A stretch of 64,000 nucleotides of DNA from Frigidibacter sp. (lineage in GTDB: Bacteria > Pseudomonadota > Alphaproteobacteria > Rhodobacterales > Rhodobacteraceae), in assembly GCF_030695035.1 (NCBI RefSeq), contig NZ_JAUYTT010000019.1:1-64000 (forward strand), in the 5' to 3' direction. A model generated the notes under the pieces. It made no database searches. It saw only the letters and a program-made list of their open reading frames with translations, and was not told where the DNA came from. Positions 25,233-28,592 of the stretch are shown here, one piece after another (the stretch's first letter is position 1; every line of letters starts with the position of its first letter). A program made the translations under genes and the position numbers.

Positions 25233-25742
25233 TCAGGCGACCGCCAGGGTCGCGCTCAGCTCGGGTTTGACGTTCAGCGTCTGGAACACGACGCAGTAGC
25301 GCTCGGTCAGCTTCAGCAGTGTGTCGAGCTTCTCCTGCGGCGCATCGGTCTCGACCTCGAAGGACAGCCGGATCGCCTTGAAGCCGACGGCGGCGTCCTT
25401 TGCGACACCGAGCGTGCCGCGGAAGTCGAGATCGCCCTCGGCATGGACGATGCCCTTCTTCAACTCGATCTCGAGCGCGGTGGCCACCGCCTTCAGCGTG
25501 ACGCCGGCGCAGGCGACAAGGGCCTCCAGCAGCATGTCACCGGAGCAGAGTTCGGCGCCCGAGCCGCCGGTGGCCGGGTGCAACCCCGCCAGCGCGATCG
25601 CACGGCCGGTCTCGACCTTGCAGGCGATGTGCTGGTCGTCGAGCTCGCCCTTGGCCTTCAGGGTGACGACGGCTGCGCCGGGATCGGAACGGTAGGAGTC
25701 CTTGAGCGGCGCCTGCAGGGCGCGGAGAGCGGTGACGTCCAT
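25233..25742 (-). CDS. OsmC family protein
   Basis: A 169-residue OsmC/Ohr-fold protein, potentially a thiol-dependent peroxidase. The conserved pair of cysteines would be Cys66 (GAELCSGD) and Cys78 (ALVACAG) at the start of the central helix. GGSGAELCSGDMLLEAL is the recognisable core. The preferred peroxide (organic or hydrogen) cannot be told from sequence. It is convergent with rmuC and downstream of the ABC importer genes. Confidence 0.88.
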   Translation of the reverse strand: MDVTALRALQAPLKDSYRSDPGAAVVTLKAKGELDDQHIACKVETGRAIALAGLHPATGGSGAELCSGDMLLEALVACAGVTLKAVATALEIELKKGIVHAEGDLDFRGTLGVAKDAAVGFKAIRLSFEVETDAPQEKLDTLLKLTERYCVVFQTLNVKPELSATLAVA

Positions 25743-25837: not shown

Positions 25838-26620
25838 TCACCACCACATCCCGGCGGTCTCGGCAGCCTTCTGCTGGTGCGGGGCCTCGTCGCGCAGCGA
25901 ACGATCGAGGCTGCGCAGGATCTCGCGCTTGGCCGCCTCGAAAGCCGGCGAGAGCCGGTCGCGCGGGCGGGCGAGCGGGTTATCGAAGGCGTCGAAGACC
26001 CGCCCCGGCTTGGGCTGCATCACCACGATCCGGTCGGCCAGCGTCACGGCCTCCTCGACGTCATGGGTCACCATGACGACGGTGGGCCGGCTCTCGCCCC
26101 ACAAAGCGAGCAGATGGCCGTGGAGGCTGGCGCGGGTGGTGGCGTCGAGCGCCGAGAACGGCTCGTCCATCAGCAGCAGCTTGGGTCGCGTGACGAGGGC
26201 GCGGGCGATGGCGACGCGCTGCTGCTGGCCGCCGGAGAGTTCGCGCGGCCAGCGCCGGTCGTGCCCGCCGAGCCCGACACGAACGAGGGCGTTGGTGACC
26301 AGCCCCTCGCGCTCGAAGGCGGAGAGATGCGAGAGGCCGAAGCCGACATTCTCGGCCACCGATAGCCAGGGGAACAGGCGCGGCTCCTGGAAGATCACCC
26401 CGACATCGGCGCGCGGCTCGGCGATCGCCTCGCCATCGAGCAGGATGCGCCCGGCGCTCGGCCGGTCGAGACCGGCGATCAGGCGCAGCAGCGTGGTCTT
26501 GCCGCAGCCCGAGCCGCCGACCAGCGCCAGGATCTCGCCCTGTGCGACATCGAGGGTGACGGCCGACAGCGCCTGCGTGCCGTCGGCATAGGTTTTCGAC
26601 AGGGTCTCGAAGCTCAGCAT
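25838..26620 (-). CDS. Sulfonate/nitrate/taurine-type ABC transporter ATPase
   Basis: A 260-residue ABC ATPase of the SsuB/TauB/NrtD type. Walker A is GGSGCGKTT, the Q-loop FQEPRLFPW, the signature LSGGQQQR, Walker B LLLMDEPF and the switch His in VTHDVEEA. It starts at the ATG at 26620, eleven bases past the permease stop, and is the last gene of the three-gene importer. It energises uptake of an organosulfur compound, if the upstream riboswitch is a guide to the substrate class. Confidence 0.92.
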   Translation of the reverse strand: MLSFETLSKTYADGTQALSAVTLDVAQGEILALVGGSGCGKTTLLRLIAGLDRPSAGRILLDGEAIAEPRADVGVIFQEPRLFPWLSVAENVGFGLSHLSAFEREGLVTNALVRVGLGGHDRRWPRELSGGQQQRVAIARALVTRPKLLLMDEPFSALDATTRASLHGHLLALWGESRPTVVMVTHDVEEAVTLADRIVVMQPKPGRVFDAFDNPLARPRDRLSPAFEAAKREILRSLDRSLRDEAPHQQKAAETAGMWW

Positions 26621-26631
26621 CGAGGGCTTTC

Positions 26632-27462
26632 TCAGAGTTTGTCGCGGGCCGTGTCCTGCCAGGCGAGAACCGGCCGCGTCAGGGCGACGAGGAGGCCGTC
26701 GGCCAGCTTTCCGAGCACGGCGAAGCTGATGATGGCCGCGATGATGGTGTCGGGCCGGCCGAGTTGCTGGCCATCGACGAGGAGGTAGCCGAGGCCTTCG
26801 CTGGCGCCCATGATCTCGGCCGCGACCACGAACATGAAGCCCAGCCCGAGCCCCGAGCGCAGCGCCGTGATCCAGGCCGGCAGGATCGCCGGCAGCAGCA
26901 CCCGTCGCGCCATCGCCAGCCGGCCGAGCCTGAAGACACGGCCGACCTCGACGATCTTGCGGTCGATGCCCTGGATCGCGGCGGCCACACCGAGATAGAC
27001 CGGGAAGAACACGCCGACCGCGATCAGCGCCACTTTCGACGCCTCGAAGATGCCGAGCCAGAGGATGAAGAGCGGCACCCAGGCGATCGAGGGAATGGCG
27101 CGCAGGGCCTGCAGCGTCGGGTCGATCAGACCGCGCGCCACCGGAAGCGCGCCGGTGACGGCGCCGAGCAAGGTGCCCGCCGCAGCGCCGAGGGCAAACC
27201 CGGCAGCAACCCGCCAGAGCGTCGCCGCGGCATGGGTGAAGAGTTCGCCCGAAGCCGCGAGAGACCAGAGGGTGGCGCCGACCACGCTCGGCGGTGGCAT
27301 CAGGCGCCCATTGGCGAAGCCCGACCTGACGGCGATCTCCCACAACACGGCCAGCACGACCGGCAGCGCGAAACCCGCCAGCGCCACGCCCGCCCGGCGT
27401 GGCCGCGGACGAGCGGGACCGCCCTGCTCATCCGCAGCCGTCTCGATGCCGAGCGCACTCAT
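26632..27462 (-). CDS. Sulfonate/nitrate/taurine-type ABC transporter permease
   Basis: A 276-residue inner-membrane permease with about six helices and the cytoplasmic EAA-type loop (AIQGIDRKIVEVGRVFRLGR...) that contacts the ATPase, as in SsuC/TauC. The Pro/Arg-rich N-terminal 25 residues are hydrophilic. It is the middle gene of the importer, with 18 bases to the binding-protein gene upstream and 11 bases to the ATPase downstream. Confidence 0.92.
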   Translation of the reverse strand: MSALGIETAADEQGGPARPRPRRAGVALAGFALPVVLAVLWEIAVRSGFANGRLMPPPSVVGATLWSLAASGELFTHAAATLWRVAAGFALGAAAGTLLGAVTGALPVARGLIDPTLQALRAIPSIAWVPLFILWLGIFEASKVALIAVGVFFPVYLGVAAAIQGIDRKIVEVGRVFRLGRLAMARRVLLPAILPAWITALRSGLGLGFMFVVAAEIMGASEGLGYLLVDGQQLGRPDTIIAAIISFAVLGKLADGLLVALTRPVLAWQDTARDKL

Positions 27463-27480: not shown

Positions 27481-28446
27481 TCAGTTGGTAACGGCGAAGC
27501 GACGGTCGAGCAGGTCATCGACCACGGCCTTCACATCGGTCTTGGCGGGCACGACGCCGGCTTCCTGCAGCGCGAGGCCAGCCGCGATGATCGTCTCGGC
27601 CTGGGCCTGCCCGATCGTGGAATGCGTGAGTTCGGTCCGGGTGAGCTGCCGCTCGATCACCGCATCGGACAGCTTGGTGTAGGCGACCAGCGTCTTCTTC
27701 AGCTCGGCCGGGTTGGCGAGCGCATAGGCGCGCGCCTCCTCGTAAGCCGCAAGAACCTTGCGCACGAGGGCCGGATTCTCCCTGGCAAAGGCCTCGCGGA
27801 CGTTGAGCACGCCCCAGGTGTTGTCGGCGGCCTTGCGGTGGAACAGCTTGGCGCCGCTCTCGACCTCGGCGGCGGCCATCAGCGGGTCGAGACCAGCCCA
27901 GGCATCGACGTCGCCGCGCTCGAGCGCCAGGCGCCCGTCGGCATGCTGCAGGAGGACGAGCCTGACGTCCTTCTCCGTCAGCTTGGCCTCGGCCAGCGCC
28001 CGGACGAGGAAGATATGCGGGTCAGTGCCGCGAGTGACGGCGACGCGCTTGCCCTTGAGGTCGGCGACCTTGGTGATCTCGCTCTTGGCGCCGGTGACCA
28101 GCGCCGTCCATTCCGGCCGCGAATAGACATAGATCGTCTTGATCGGGTTGCCGTTGATCTTGCCGATCAGCGCGGCTGCGCCGGCCGTCGAGCCGAAGTC
28201 GAGCGAGCCGGCGTTGAGGAACTCCAGTGCCTTGTTGGAGCCGGCGGACTGCACCCAGCGCACGGTGATGCCGTCGGCCGCCAGTGCCTTCTCGAGGATG
28301 CCGCTGTCCTTCAGGACGAGGCTGACCGGGTTATAGGTCGCGAAGTCGACGCGGATTTCCTTGGGCGCCTGGGCGAAGGCCTGTCCGGCAGAGAGAACGA
28401 GCGACACGGCAAGGCCGGCGACGGCTAGACGGCGGGAAATGGTCAT
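27481..28446 (-). CDS. Aliphatic-sulfonate-type ABC transporter substrate-binding protein
   Basis: A 321-residue periplasmic binding protein of the SsuA/NMT1-like fold. It has a signal peptide (cleavage after AFA near residue 25), KEIRVDFATYNPVSLVLKD at the start of lobe 1, and GKRVAVTRGTDPHIFL at the ligand-facing loop. Homologues bind alkanesulfonates, taurine or related compounds. The mRNA leader carries a SAM-II riboswitch and a hairpin covering the ribosome site, which points to sulfur or methionine supply. Exact substrate unknown. Confidence 0.9.
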   Translation of the reverse strand: MTISRRLAVAGLAVSLVLSAGQAFAQAPKEIRVDFATYNPVSLVLKDSGILEKALAADGITVRWVQSAGSNKALEFLNAGSLDFGSTAGAAALIGKINGNPIKTIYVYSRPEWTALVTGAKSEITKVADLKGKRVAVTRGTDPHIFLVRALAEAKLTEKDVRLVLLQHADGRLALERGDVDAWAGLDPLMAAAEVESGAKLFHRKAADNTWGVLNVREAFARENPALVRKVLAAYEEARAYALANPAELKKTLVAYTKLSDAVIERQLTRTELTHSTIGQAQAETIIAAGLALQEAGVVPAKTDVKAVVDDLLDRRFAVTN

Positions 28447-28450
28447 TCAG

Positions 28451-28476
28451 GGTCCCTTTCGATGCGCGAAGGGACC
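28451..28476 (-). promoter_or_regulatory. SD-sequestering hairpin before the binding-protein gene
   Basis: On the minus strand an 8-bp stem GGTCCCTT / AAGGGACC closes five bases before the start codon at 28446. Its 3' arm contains the only plausible Shine-Dalgarno sequence (AAAGGGA). It lies between the SAM-II aptamer and the gene, so it is a natural expression platform. Coupling to the aptamer is inference. Confidence 0.55.
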
Positions 28477-28502
28477 GAGCGACAGGTTGGCGCCCATGCC
28501 CC

Positions 28503-28557
28503 ACGCTTTAGCTGCACTTGTTTCGCGCCCGCAAGCTGGTGGCTCAAATCGGCGCGT
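28503..28557 (-). ncRNA. SAM-II riboswitch aptamer
   Basis: Reading the minus strand, GCGCC (28555-28551) is followed at once by the conserved GATTTGAGCC (28550-28541). Then come CTTGC (28535-28531) and GGCGC (28529-28525), which pairs with the first arm as P1. AAACAAGTGCAGCTAAAGC (28523-28505) supplies the pseudoknot strand with the invariant GCTAAAG. Spacing and order match SAM-II aptamers such as metX leaders of alphaproteobacteria. It begins a few bases after a predicted transcription start and ends 58 bases before the ABC importer start codon. SAM binding would lower expression. Confidence 0.85.
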
Positions 28558-28563
28558 ATCCGC

Positions 28564-28592
28564 CTTTTAGGTCCATTCGTTCTGTATGTCAA
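28564..28592 (-). promoter_or_regulatory. Promoter of the SAM-II-controlled importer
   Basis: TTGACA (28592-28587), a 17-base spacer, then TAAAAG (28569-28564) on the minus strand. Predicted initiation near 28557 coincides with the 5' edge of the SAM-II aptamer, which supports both calls. Confidence 0.6.

Follow-up and report, generated by a model that had tools for sequence, protein, structure and literature searches.

A probable SAM-II riboswitch in front of an SsuABC-like importer on a Bosea-like contig

The minus strand of the window, a stretch of 64,000 nucleotides analysed at its full length, carries an RNA element in front of the genes of an SsuABC-like importer, and its assignment to SAM-II is sound by comparison with related sequences. 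We regard a SAM-II OFF switch on the translation of an organosulfur importer as the best explanation of this arrangement, and as one that is probably correct; what we infer in it is that SAM is the ligand, that its binding turns translation off, that P2 is coupled to the hairpin ahead of the start codon, that the genes are co-transcribed, and which cargo is carried. The role described for SAM-II so far is the switching of enzymes of methionine synthesis. The novelty is the importer target and a SAM-II subtype, while the kind of device is already known. If the reading is true, importers in a large group of soil and plant bacteria are under SAM-II control, an importer with unassigned cargo can be tied to methionine in a testable way, and the shift of targets from metY to importers is a clean case of a redeployed riboswitch class; catalogues of regulons that rely on the Rfam cut-off would then leave out an entire branch of sulfur control.

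The aptamer, its leader and its relatives

The preliminary description had placed a promoter box, a SAM-II aptamer and a Shine-Dalgarno hairpin in series on the minus strand, and all three are found at those places (Table 1). The check that it proposed against the covariance model was borne out in part: RF00521 (SAM_alpha, SAM-II) matches at 28565-28488 over its full length (model positions 1-79 of 79) with 33.5 bits and, against 4227 Rfam families, E values of 4.3e-6 within 300 bases and 9.2e-4 over the whole window, but the Rfam gathering score of 36 bits is not reached. The window copy was found by a permissive search only; a search of the whole window at the gathering threshold lists no family, SAM-II included. 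Our own model R1, for which relatives and the window copy itself were the input, gives 92.5 bits at 28558-28493. Further sub-threshold Rfam matches in the window (P10, OmrA-B, Atu_C9 and others) were taken as chance.

Table 1. Features of the leader and of the genes behind it, in window coordinates
Feature	Position	Strand	Basis
-35 box TTGACA	28587..28592	-	read from sequence; TTGAC conserved in leaders
candidate -10 box CTAAAA	28565..28570	-	read from sequence; weak against the sigma-70 consensus
SAM-II aptamer (SAM_alpha, RF00521)	28488..28565	-	full-length covariance-model match, 33.5 bits
P1 stem, 5' strand CGCGCC	28551..28556	-	paired in 99.6% of cells over 42 aptamers; covarying across ssu/metN/metY/metX types
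conserved core GAUUUG (loop)	28545..28550	-	letters as in the Rfam consensus; invariant in 42/42
P2b pseudoknot, 5' strand GCCACCAGC	28535..28543	-	columns 22/59 pair in the 42-aptamer alignment
core UUGC; GC at 28532-28531 is the P2a 5' strand	28531..28534	-	invariant in 42/42
P1 stem, 3' strand GGCGCG	28524..28529	-	pairing and covariation
core GCUAAA; GC at 28512-28511 is the P2a 3' strand	28507..28512	-	invariant in 42/42
P2b pseudoknot, 3' strand GCGUGGGGC	28498..28506	-	42-aptamer alignment
Shine-Dalgarno-masking hairpin GGUCCCUU...AAGGGACC	28451..28476	-	folding energy; arms changing together in relatives
SsuA-like substrate-binding protein, 321 aa	27481..28446	-	TIGR01728, 223.9 bits (cut-off 163.5); PF09084; nearest PDB entry 2x26
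SsuC/TauC-like permease	26632..27462	-	PF00528; best NCBIfam SsuC model 175 bits (cut-off 347)
SsuB/TauB/NtrCD-type ABC ATPase	25838..26617	-	PF00005; no NCBIfam model over cut-off among the 25 matches listed
OsmC-like protein	25233..25742	-	PF02566; behind the ABC genes in 20 or more of 28 relatives

The conserved core that marks SAM-II is present, and we take its letters GAUUUG, UUGC and GCUAAA, invariant among the ssu-type aptamers, to be the SAM pocket of the SAM-II crystal structure. Beside the nearly complete pairing of P1, P2a is paired in 100% and P2b in 76.8% of cells of the 42 ssu-type aptamers. P2b is the irregular part: its columns 22/59 hold GC in 20 rows, CG in 11, GU in 3 and UG in 1, with 7 of 42 unpaired; columns 26/55 are unpaired in 5 of 42 once five Microvirga leaders with a variant core are included, and two of the eight proposed P2b pairs are unpaired in at least half of the rows. 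Covariation over the whole structure of the 42 aptamers is 0.083 against 0.039 after shuffling, a value that none of 500 shuffles reaches; the tally of double-change pairs is ordinary (155 of 500 shuffles). An alignment of ssu, metN, metY and metX types (29 distinct rows) has P1 98.2% paired, with double changes in four of its six pairs, so that P1 covaries as expected of SAM-II; its double-change cells and its covariation score exceed every one of 500 shuffles, and its count of double-change pairs is ordinary (93 of 500). Because the aptamer sequences are related, such shuffles overstate significance. An RNAalifold fold of alignment A1 was left aside, since RNAalifold draws no pseudoknots. 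Together, the RF00521 match and the covariation of P1 and of one P2b pair support the class named in the preliminary description.

The sample comprised 80 named relatives of the binding protein, those ranking best among 335 confirmed, and 52 of these 80 carry the element upstream at the same position, which makes a chance origin of the window element very unlikely. It stands at all 42 loci of the Bosea/Microvirga clade and at 10 of the 38 others; at the 28 loci without it, among them Afipia and every one of the 20 Bradyrhizobium loci, our own model does not exceed 13.6 bits across the whole locus. On a quick protein tree the trait takes 5 changes against about 24 with shuffled labels, a contrast that near-copies inflate. 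Five of the ten carriers outside the clade (L110, L111, L115, L118 and L129) carry additional sequence between P1 and GCUAAA and are absent from alignments A1 and A3. Five Microvirga leaders (L094, L096, L097, L099 and L107; core AGAUUGC) were missed by the strict core pattern; they are inside the 80-relative count and alignment A3, and outside the counts given below for TTGAC, the hairpin, the anti-sequester pairing, the palindrome and the cysteine-codon frames. A SAM_alpha match at E 0.01 occurs in 21 of 22 genomes of relatives; in the ten of Bosea/Microvirga type the copies score about 27-38 bits, none over 38.0 and all but one under the cut-off, and among ssu-type copies in named genomes 4 of 14 pass it. 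The comparison of relatives thus extends the link of SAM-II to an Ssu-like importer over several genera. Of 28 relatives examined for gene order, 20 or more have a divergent glnD upstream; the counts from these 28 are lower bounds, the simple gene caller having been led to shadow frames and having missed the window's own importer genes.

In all 48 leaders examined (the window and 47 relatives with the strict core pattern), TTGAC lies 41-43 nt 5' of the aptamer core. The promoter a few nucleotides before P1 that is typical of SAM-II is thus represented here by the TTGACA box with a weak -10; a consensus promoter scan of the leader reported no promoter. Five orthologues without an aptamer (L113, L114, L116, L125 and L143) still have the TTGACA..GAAC promoter element, and promoter and aptamer are therefore separable. 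As a common operator, the palindrome GTTCTTTAAAAGAAC was rejected as too patchy: it occurs in 8 of 47 ssu, 7 of 27 metN-type and 1 of 10 metY leaders, and is absent from the window.

The contig itself resembles Bosea. The binding protein is 96% identical to a Bosea protein, and in the window assembly's own family, where a match at E 0.001 is found in 104 of 149 genomes (its own included), the best identity is 33%. A second glnD, 45% identical and the only core gene tested for duplication, lies on another contig of the assembly. By these sequences, the window contig is likely Bosea DNA inside another organism's assembly, that is, contamination; a very recent large transfer of Bosea DNA may be the cause instead. 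The assembly holds a second SAM-II, of 58.1 bits, upstream of a metY-like gene, which, given the Bosea-like window contig, probably belongs to the non-Bosea organism.

Control of translation and its rivals

The hairpin at 28476-28451 has a folding energy of -14.4 kcal/mol (z is -2.23 for a 38-nt segment and -1.4 for one of 48 nt), and its 3' arm contains the Shine-Dalgarno-like AAGGGA and stops 4 nt short of the ATG at 28446. Over 48 leaders the masking hairpin scores 11.3 against 7.7 for mononucleotide shuffles, and in 43 of them it exceeds the mean of the leader's own shuffles; against dinucleotide shuffles it is only mildly special (mean z -1.45, with z below -1.5 in 23 of 47 leaders). Across relatives the arms change in compensating pairs, namely GGTCCCTT/AAGGGACC, CGATCCCT/AGGGATCG, TCCCATG/CATGGGA and TCCCTCCT/AGGAGGGA. 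A scan of the leader for intrinsic terminators found none, and translation is therefore the likelier level of control.

On the reading that we prefer, the promoter directly upstream would yield a short leader folding as the H-type pseudoknot of SAM-II. When SAM is plentiful it would bind and P2 would form, the hairpin before the start codon would keep the Shine-Dalgarno sequence paired, and the SsuABC-like importer and its OsmC partner would be poorly translated. When SAM is low, P2 would open, the hairpin would yield and uptake of organosulfur compounds would rise. This resembles the metA SAM-II of S. meliloti in the translational control proposed here and in a start codon tens of nucleotides downstream; as described in excerpts of PMC9373788, the Shine-Dalgarno sequence there lies inside the riboswitch and a terminator follows, whereas here a separate hairpin precedes the ATG.

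Energy models do not support a dependence of the hairpin on the state of the aptamer. The fold of the whole leader is ordinary against shuffles (z -0.89), with no switch visible, and an anti-sequester pairing between the 3' strand of P2 and the 5' arm of the hairpin was rejected as a candidate: it reaches -9.5 kcal/mol where composition predicts -8.7, is better than composition in 34 of 46 leaders and is stronger than the hairpin in only 15 of 46. The invisibility of this coupling lends some weight to a different reading, in which the aptamer controls transcription (by Rho-dependent or early arrest) or RNA stability and the hairpin is a static damper of translation; terminators also follow many SAM-II RNAs, according to the part of Corbino 2005 (PMC1273637) available to us. 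The lack of an intrinsic terminator in the leader speaks against it, as does the pairing of at least half of the bases -14 to -5 before the ATG in the predicted fold of 43 of 47 leaders, a figure without a control, and we hold this reading to be rather unlikely. It is improbable that the fold has been kept and the ligand changed to SAH, methionine, a thioether or the cargo: such a look-alike would agree with a closely knit subtype whose scores mostly stay under the threshold and whose P2 is irregular, and with targets that are chiefly importers and not biosynthetic enzymes, but the Rfam-consensus letters GAUUUG, UUGC and GCUAAA are all kept. That the element is a decayed, functionless relic, as its score under the Rfam cut-off and its irregular P2b might suggest, is hardly credible, since a near-invariant core and covarying stems across Bosea, Microvirga and others are unexpected of a relic.

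The importer, its cargo and known systems

The sulfonate-type importer named in the preliminary description holds as a family assignment: TIGR01728 is passed over its cut-off by the binding protein, whose N-terminus resembles a signal peptide, and the nearest sequence neighbours of known structure are 2x26 (an aliphatic sulphonates-binding protein) and 3e4r, which we take to be SsuA of E. coli and Xanthomonas. The PRK11553 SsuA model (NF008588) gives 127.2 of the 299 bits required and the PRK11365 SsuC model (NF008470) 175 of 347, so membership of the SsuABC family is supported and orthology is not. Like SsuABC of E. coli, the window's importer combines a protein of the SsuA family (TIGR01728), an SsuC-like permease and an SsuB-like ATPase; unlike it, no SsuD or SsuE adjoins, an OsmC-like gene stands in their place, and control by RNA is predicted, whereas E. 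coli SsuABC is under Cbl/CysB control. The OsmC-like gene is probably the last of the operon.

No desulfonase (SsuD/SsuE) adjoins the importer in the window, and SsuD (TIGR03565) passes its cut-off in only 2 of 12 importer-bearing genomes, a set without the window's own source genome, so a classical alkanesulfonate cargo is not secured. The earlier proposal that the cargo feeds methionine and SAM synthesis gains indirect support from the SAM-II class before metN or metQ in Bosea and Microvirga genomes and before an ssuA-ssuD pair in two other genomes (below). Most probably the importer carries an organosulfur compound, which may be a sulfonate and whose sulfur would end in methionine.

In excerpts of Corbino 2005 (PMC1273637), SAM-II is the metA element, alphaproteobacterial like the RNA of the window and like it in having a promoter just before a single P1, a conserved core and a P2 pseudoknot, the last being predicted for the window. 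The differences are that the target here is an importer and not metA, metX, metY or metC, that P2b is irregular, and that 5 of the 52 element-bearing relatives have the extra stretch between P1 and GCUAAA. The available text of PMC1273637, PMC2258182 (Barrick and Breaker 2007), PMC9373788, PMC5069961 and PMC2704228 names no importer as a SAM-II target, and the main text of Leyn 2014 (PMC4239095), in the part at hand, names none for SAM_alpha, giving metY as the core and hom, metA, metX, metC and metW as further targets. Among the matches listed, the open-access literature does not describe SAM-II ahead of ssu or metN genes. In Bacillota, SAM-family riboswitches precede the same two importer types, metNIQ and ssuABC-type, according to sections of PMC12452182; the case differs in phylum, in tandem arrangements and in the pooling of SAM classes as one family, and those sections take the ssu-type genes for an importer of a pyrimidine (HMP). 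Extracts of PMC5069961 and PMC2704228 on Candidatus Pelagibacter give osmC as a SAM-riboswitch target, while in the window an OsmC gene follows SAM-II-preceded importer genes; the riboswitch there is SAM-V, and organosulfur importers are stressed as not induced. By analogy, the OsmC-like gene kept behind the importer genes and the osmC target of SAM-V in Pelagibacter (PMC5069961, in the same extracts) hint at a common role in sulfur stress.

SAM-II copies in the Bosea family

Among the Bosea/Microvirga-type genomes of the 22-genome survey, one target of SAM-II is the Ssu-like binding protein. Six Bosea-type genomes have SAM-II followed by a short ORF, an ORF of about 80 aa, metN (78-100% identical to the Bosea thiooxidans copy) and, further down, metQ; metQ stands behind SAM-II in one Microvirga genome, and a degenerate SsuB-like ATPase in three Bosea-type genomes. 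R1 matches in 43 of 119 Bosea-family genomes, and 40 of the listed R1 places were tallied by target: 16 precede an Ssu-like gene, 11 MetN or MetQ, 3 other sulfonate genes, 2 a rhodanese, 2 metY, 1 a degenerate ATPase, 2 the ~80-aa ORF without metN within reach, and 3 nothing recognisable.

Some metN-type SAM-II RNAs stand before sulfonate genes. In L226 (335-2645) the RNA precedes a protein of the SsuA family (242.4 bits against a cut-off of 163.5) and an SsuD (TIGR03565, 584.4 bits, cut-off 518.2), in L227 another SsuA-family member (239.0 bits) with an ORF that by eye resembles SsuD, and in L223, which also holds an SsuA-like protein under its cut-off, an MsuE-type FMN reductase (218.9 bits, cut-off 212.5). 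As annotated from their sequences, these three are direct links of SAM-II to the use of sulfonates. In L221 and L222 a gene with a rhodanese (sulfurtransferase) domain, PF00581, follows the metN-type RNA. Orthologues of metY, the classic SAM-II target, are present in 12 of 12 genomes tested, with an upstream SAM-II match in only 2.

The position of the relatives' RNA before importers of sulfur compounds and methionine suggests that it is used to control sulfur uptake. A wider proposal is that an overlooked, mostly sub-cut-off SAM-II subtype runs a sulfur-uptake regulon of the Bosea family, comprising the Ssu-like importer with OsmC, MetN/MetQ, ssuA-ssuD and rhodanese, with metY often without SAM-II, and that leaders of the metN branch read both SAM and charged cysteine tRNA. 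We consider this joint reading evenly poised between true and false, having raised it slightly to that level because of the ssuA-ssuD targets.

The second part of that proposal concerns a short leader ORF in which cysteine codons stand in a row (for example M..MCCCRR-stop), seen 3' of metN-type SAM-II cores in, among others, L181, L182, L184, L211 and L227. It is present in 15 of 27 leaders with a metN-type core, where mononucleotide shuffles predict 0.125, the 15 being related and not independent cases, and in none of 47 ssu-type leaders. From its sequence it may be an attenuator that senses cysteine, placed in series with SAM-II; the open-access literature, among the matches listed, has no cysteine leader peptide like it. 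The ~80-aa ORF between leader and metN (L181, 1397-1642, and counterparts) is conserved in the six Bosea-type genomes, and the L181 copy has no Pfam or NCBIfam match.

Several further observations concern these genomes. A third SAM-II copy stands before an SsuB-like ATPase in L076 (7645-7709), L078, L079, L103 and L202, in the first four of these 2.8-3.4 kb behind the first copy; the N-terminal part of the ATPase is missing in the one copy searched. One Bradyrhizobium locus, L187, has a 30.2-bit SAM-II match before a metallophosphoesterase gene, which fits no sulfur reading. Six Bosea metY leaders (L242, L243, L245, L246, L249 and L250) contain, by eye, palindromes such as CGTTC..TTTACGAACG and CCGTTATA..GAACGG where SAM-II would be expected, and these look like the operators of some regulator.
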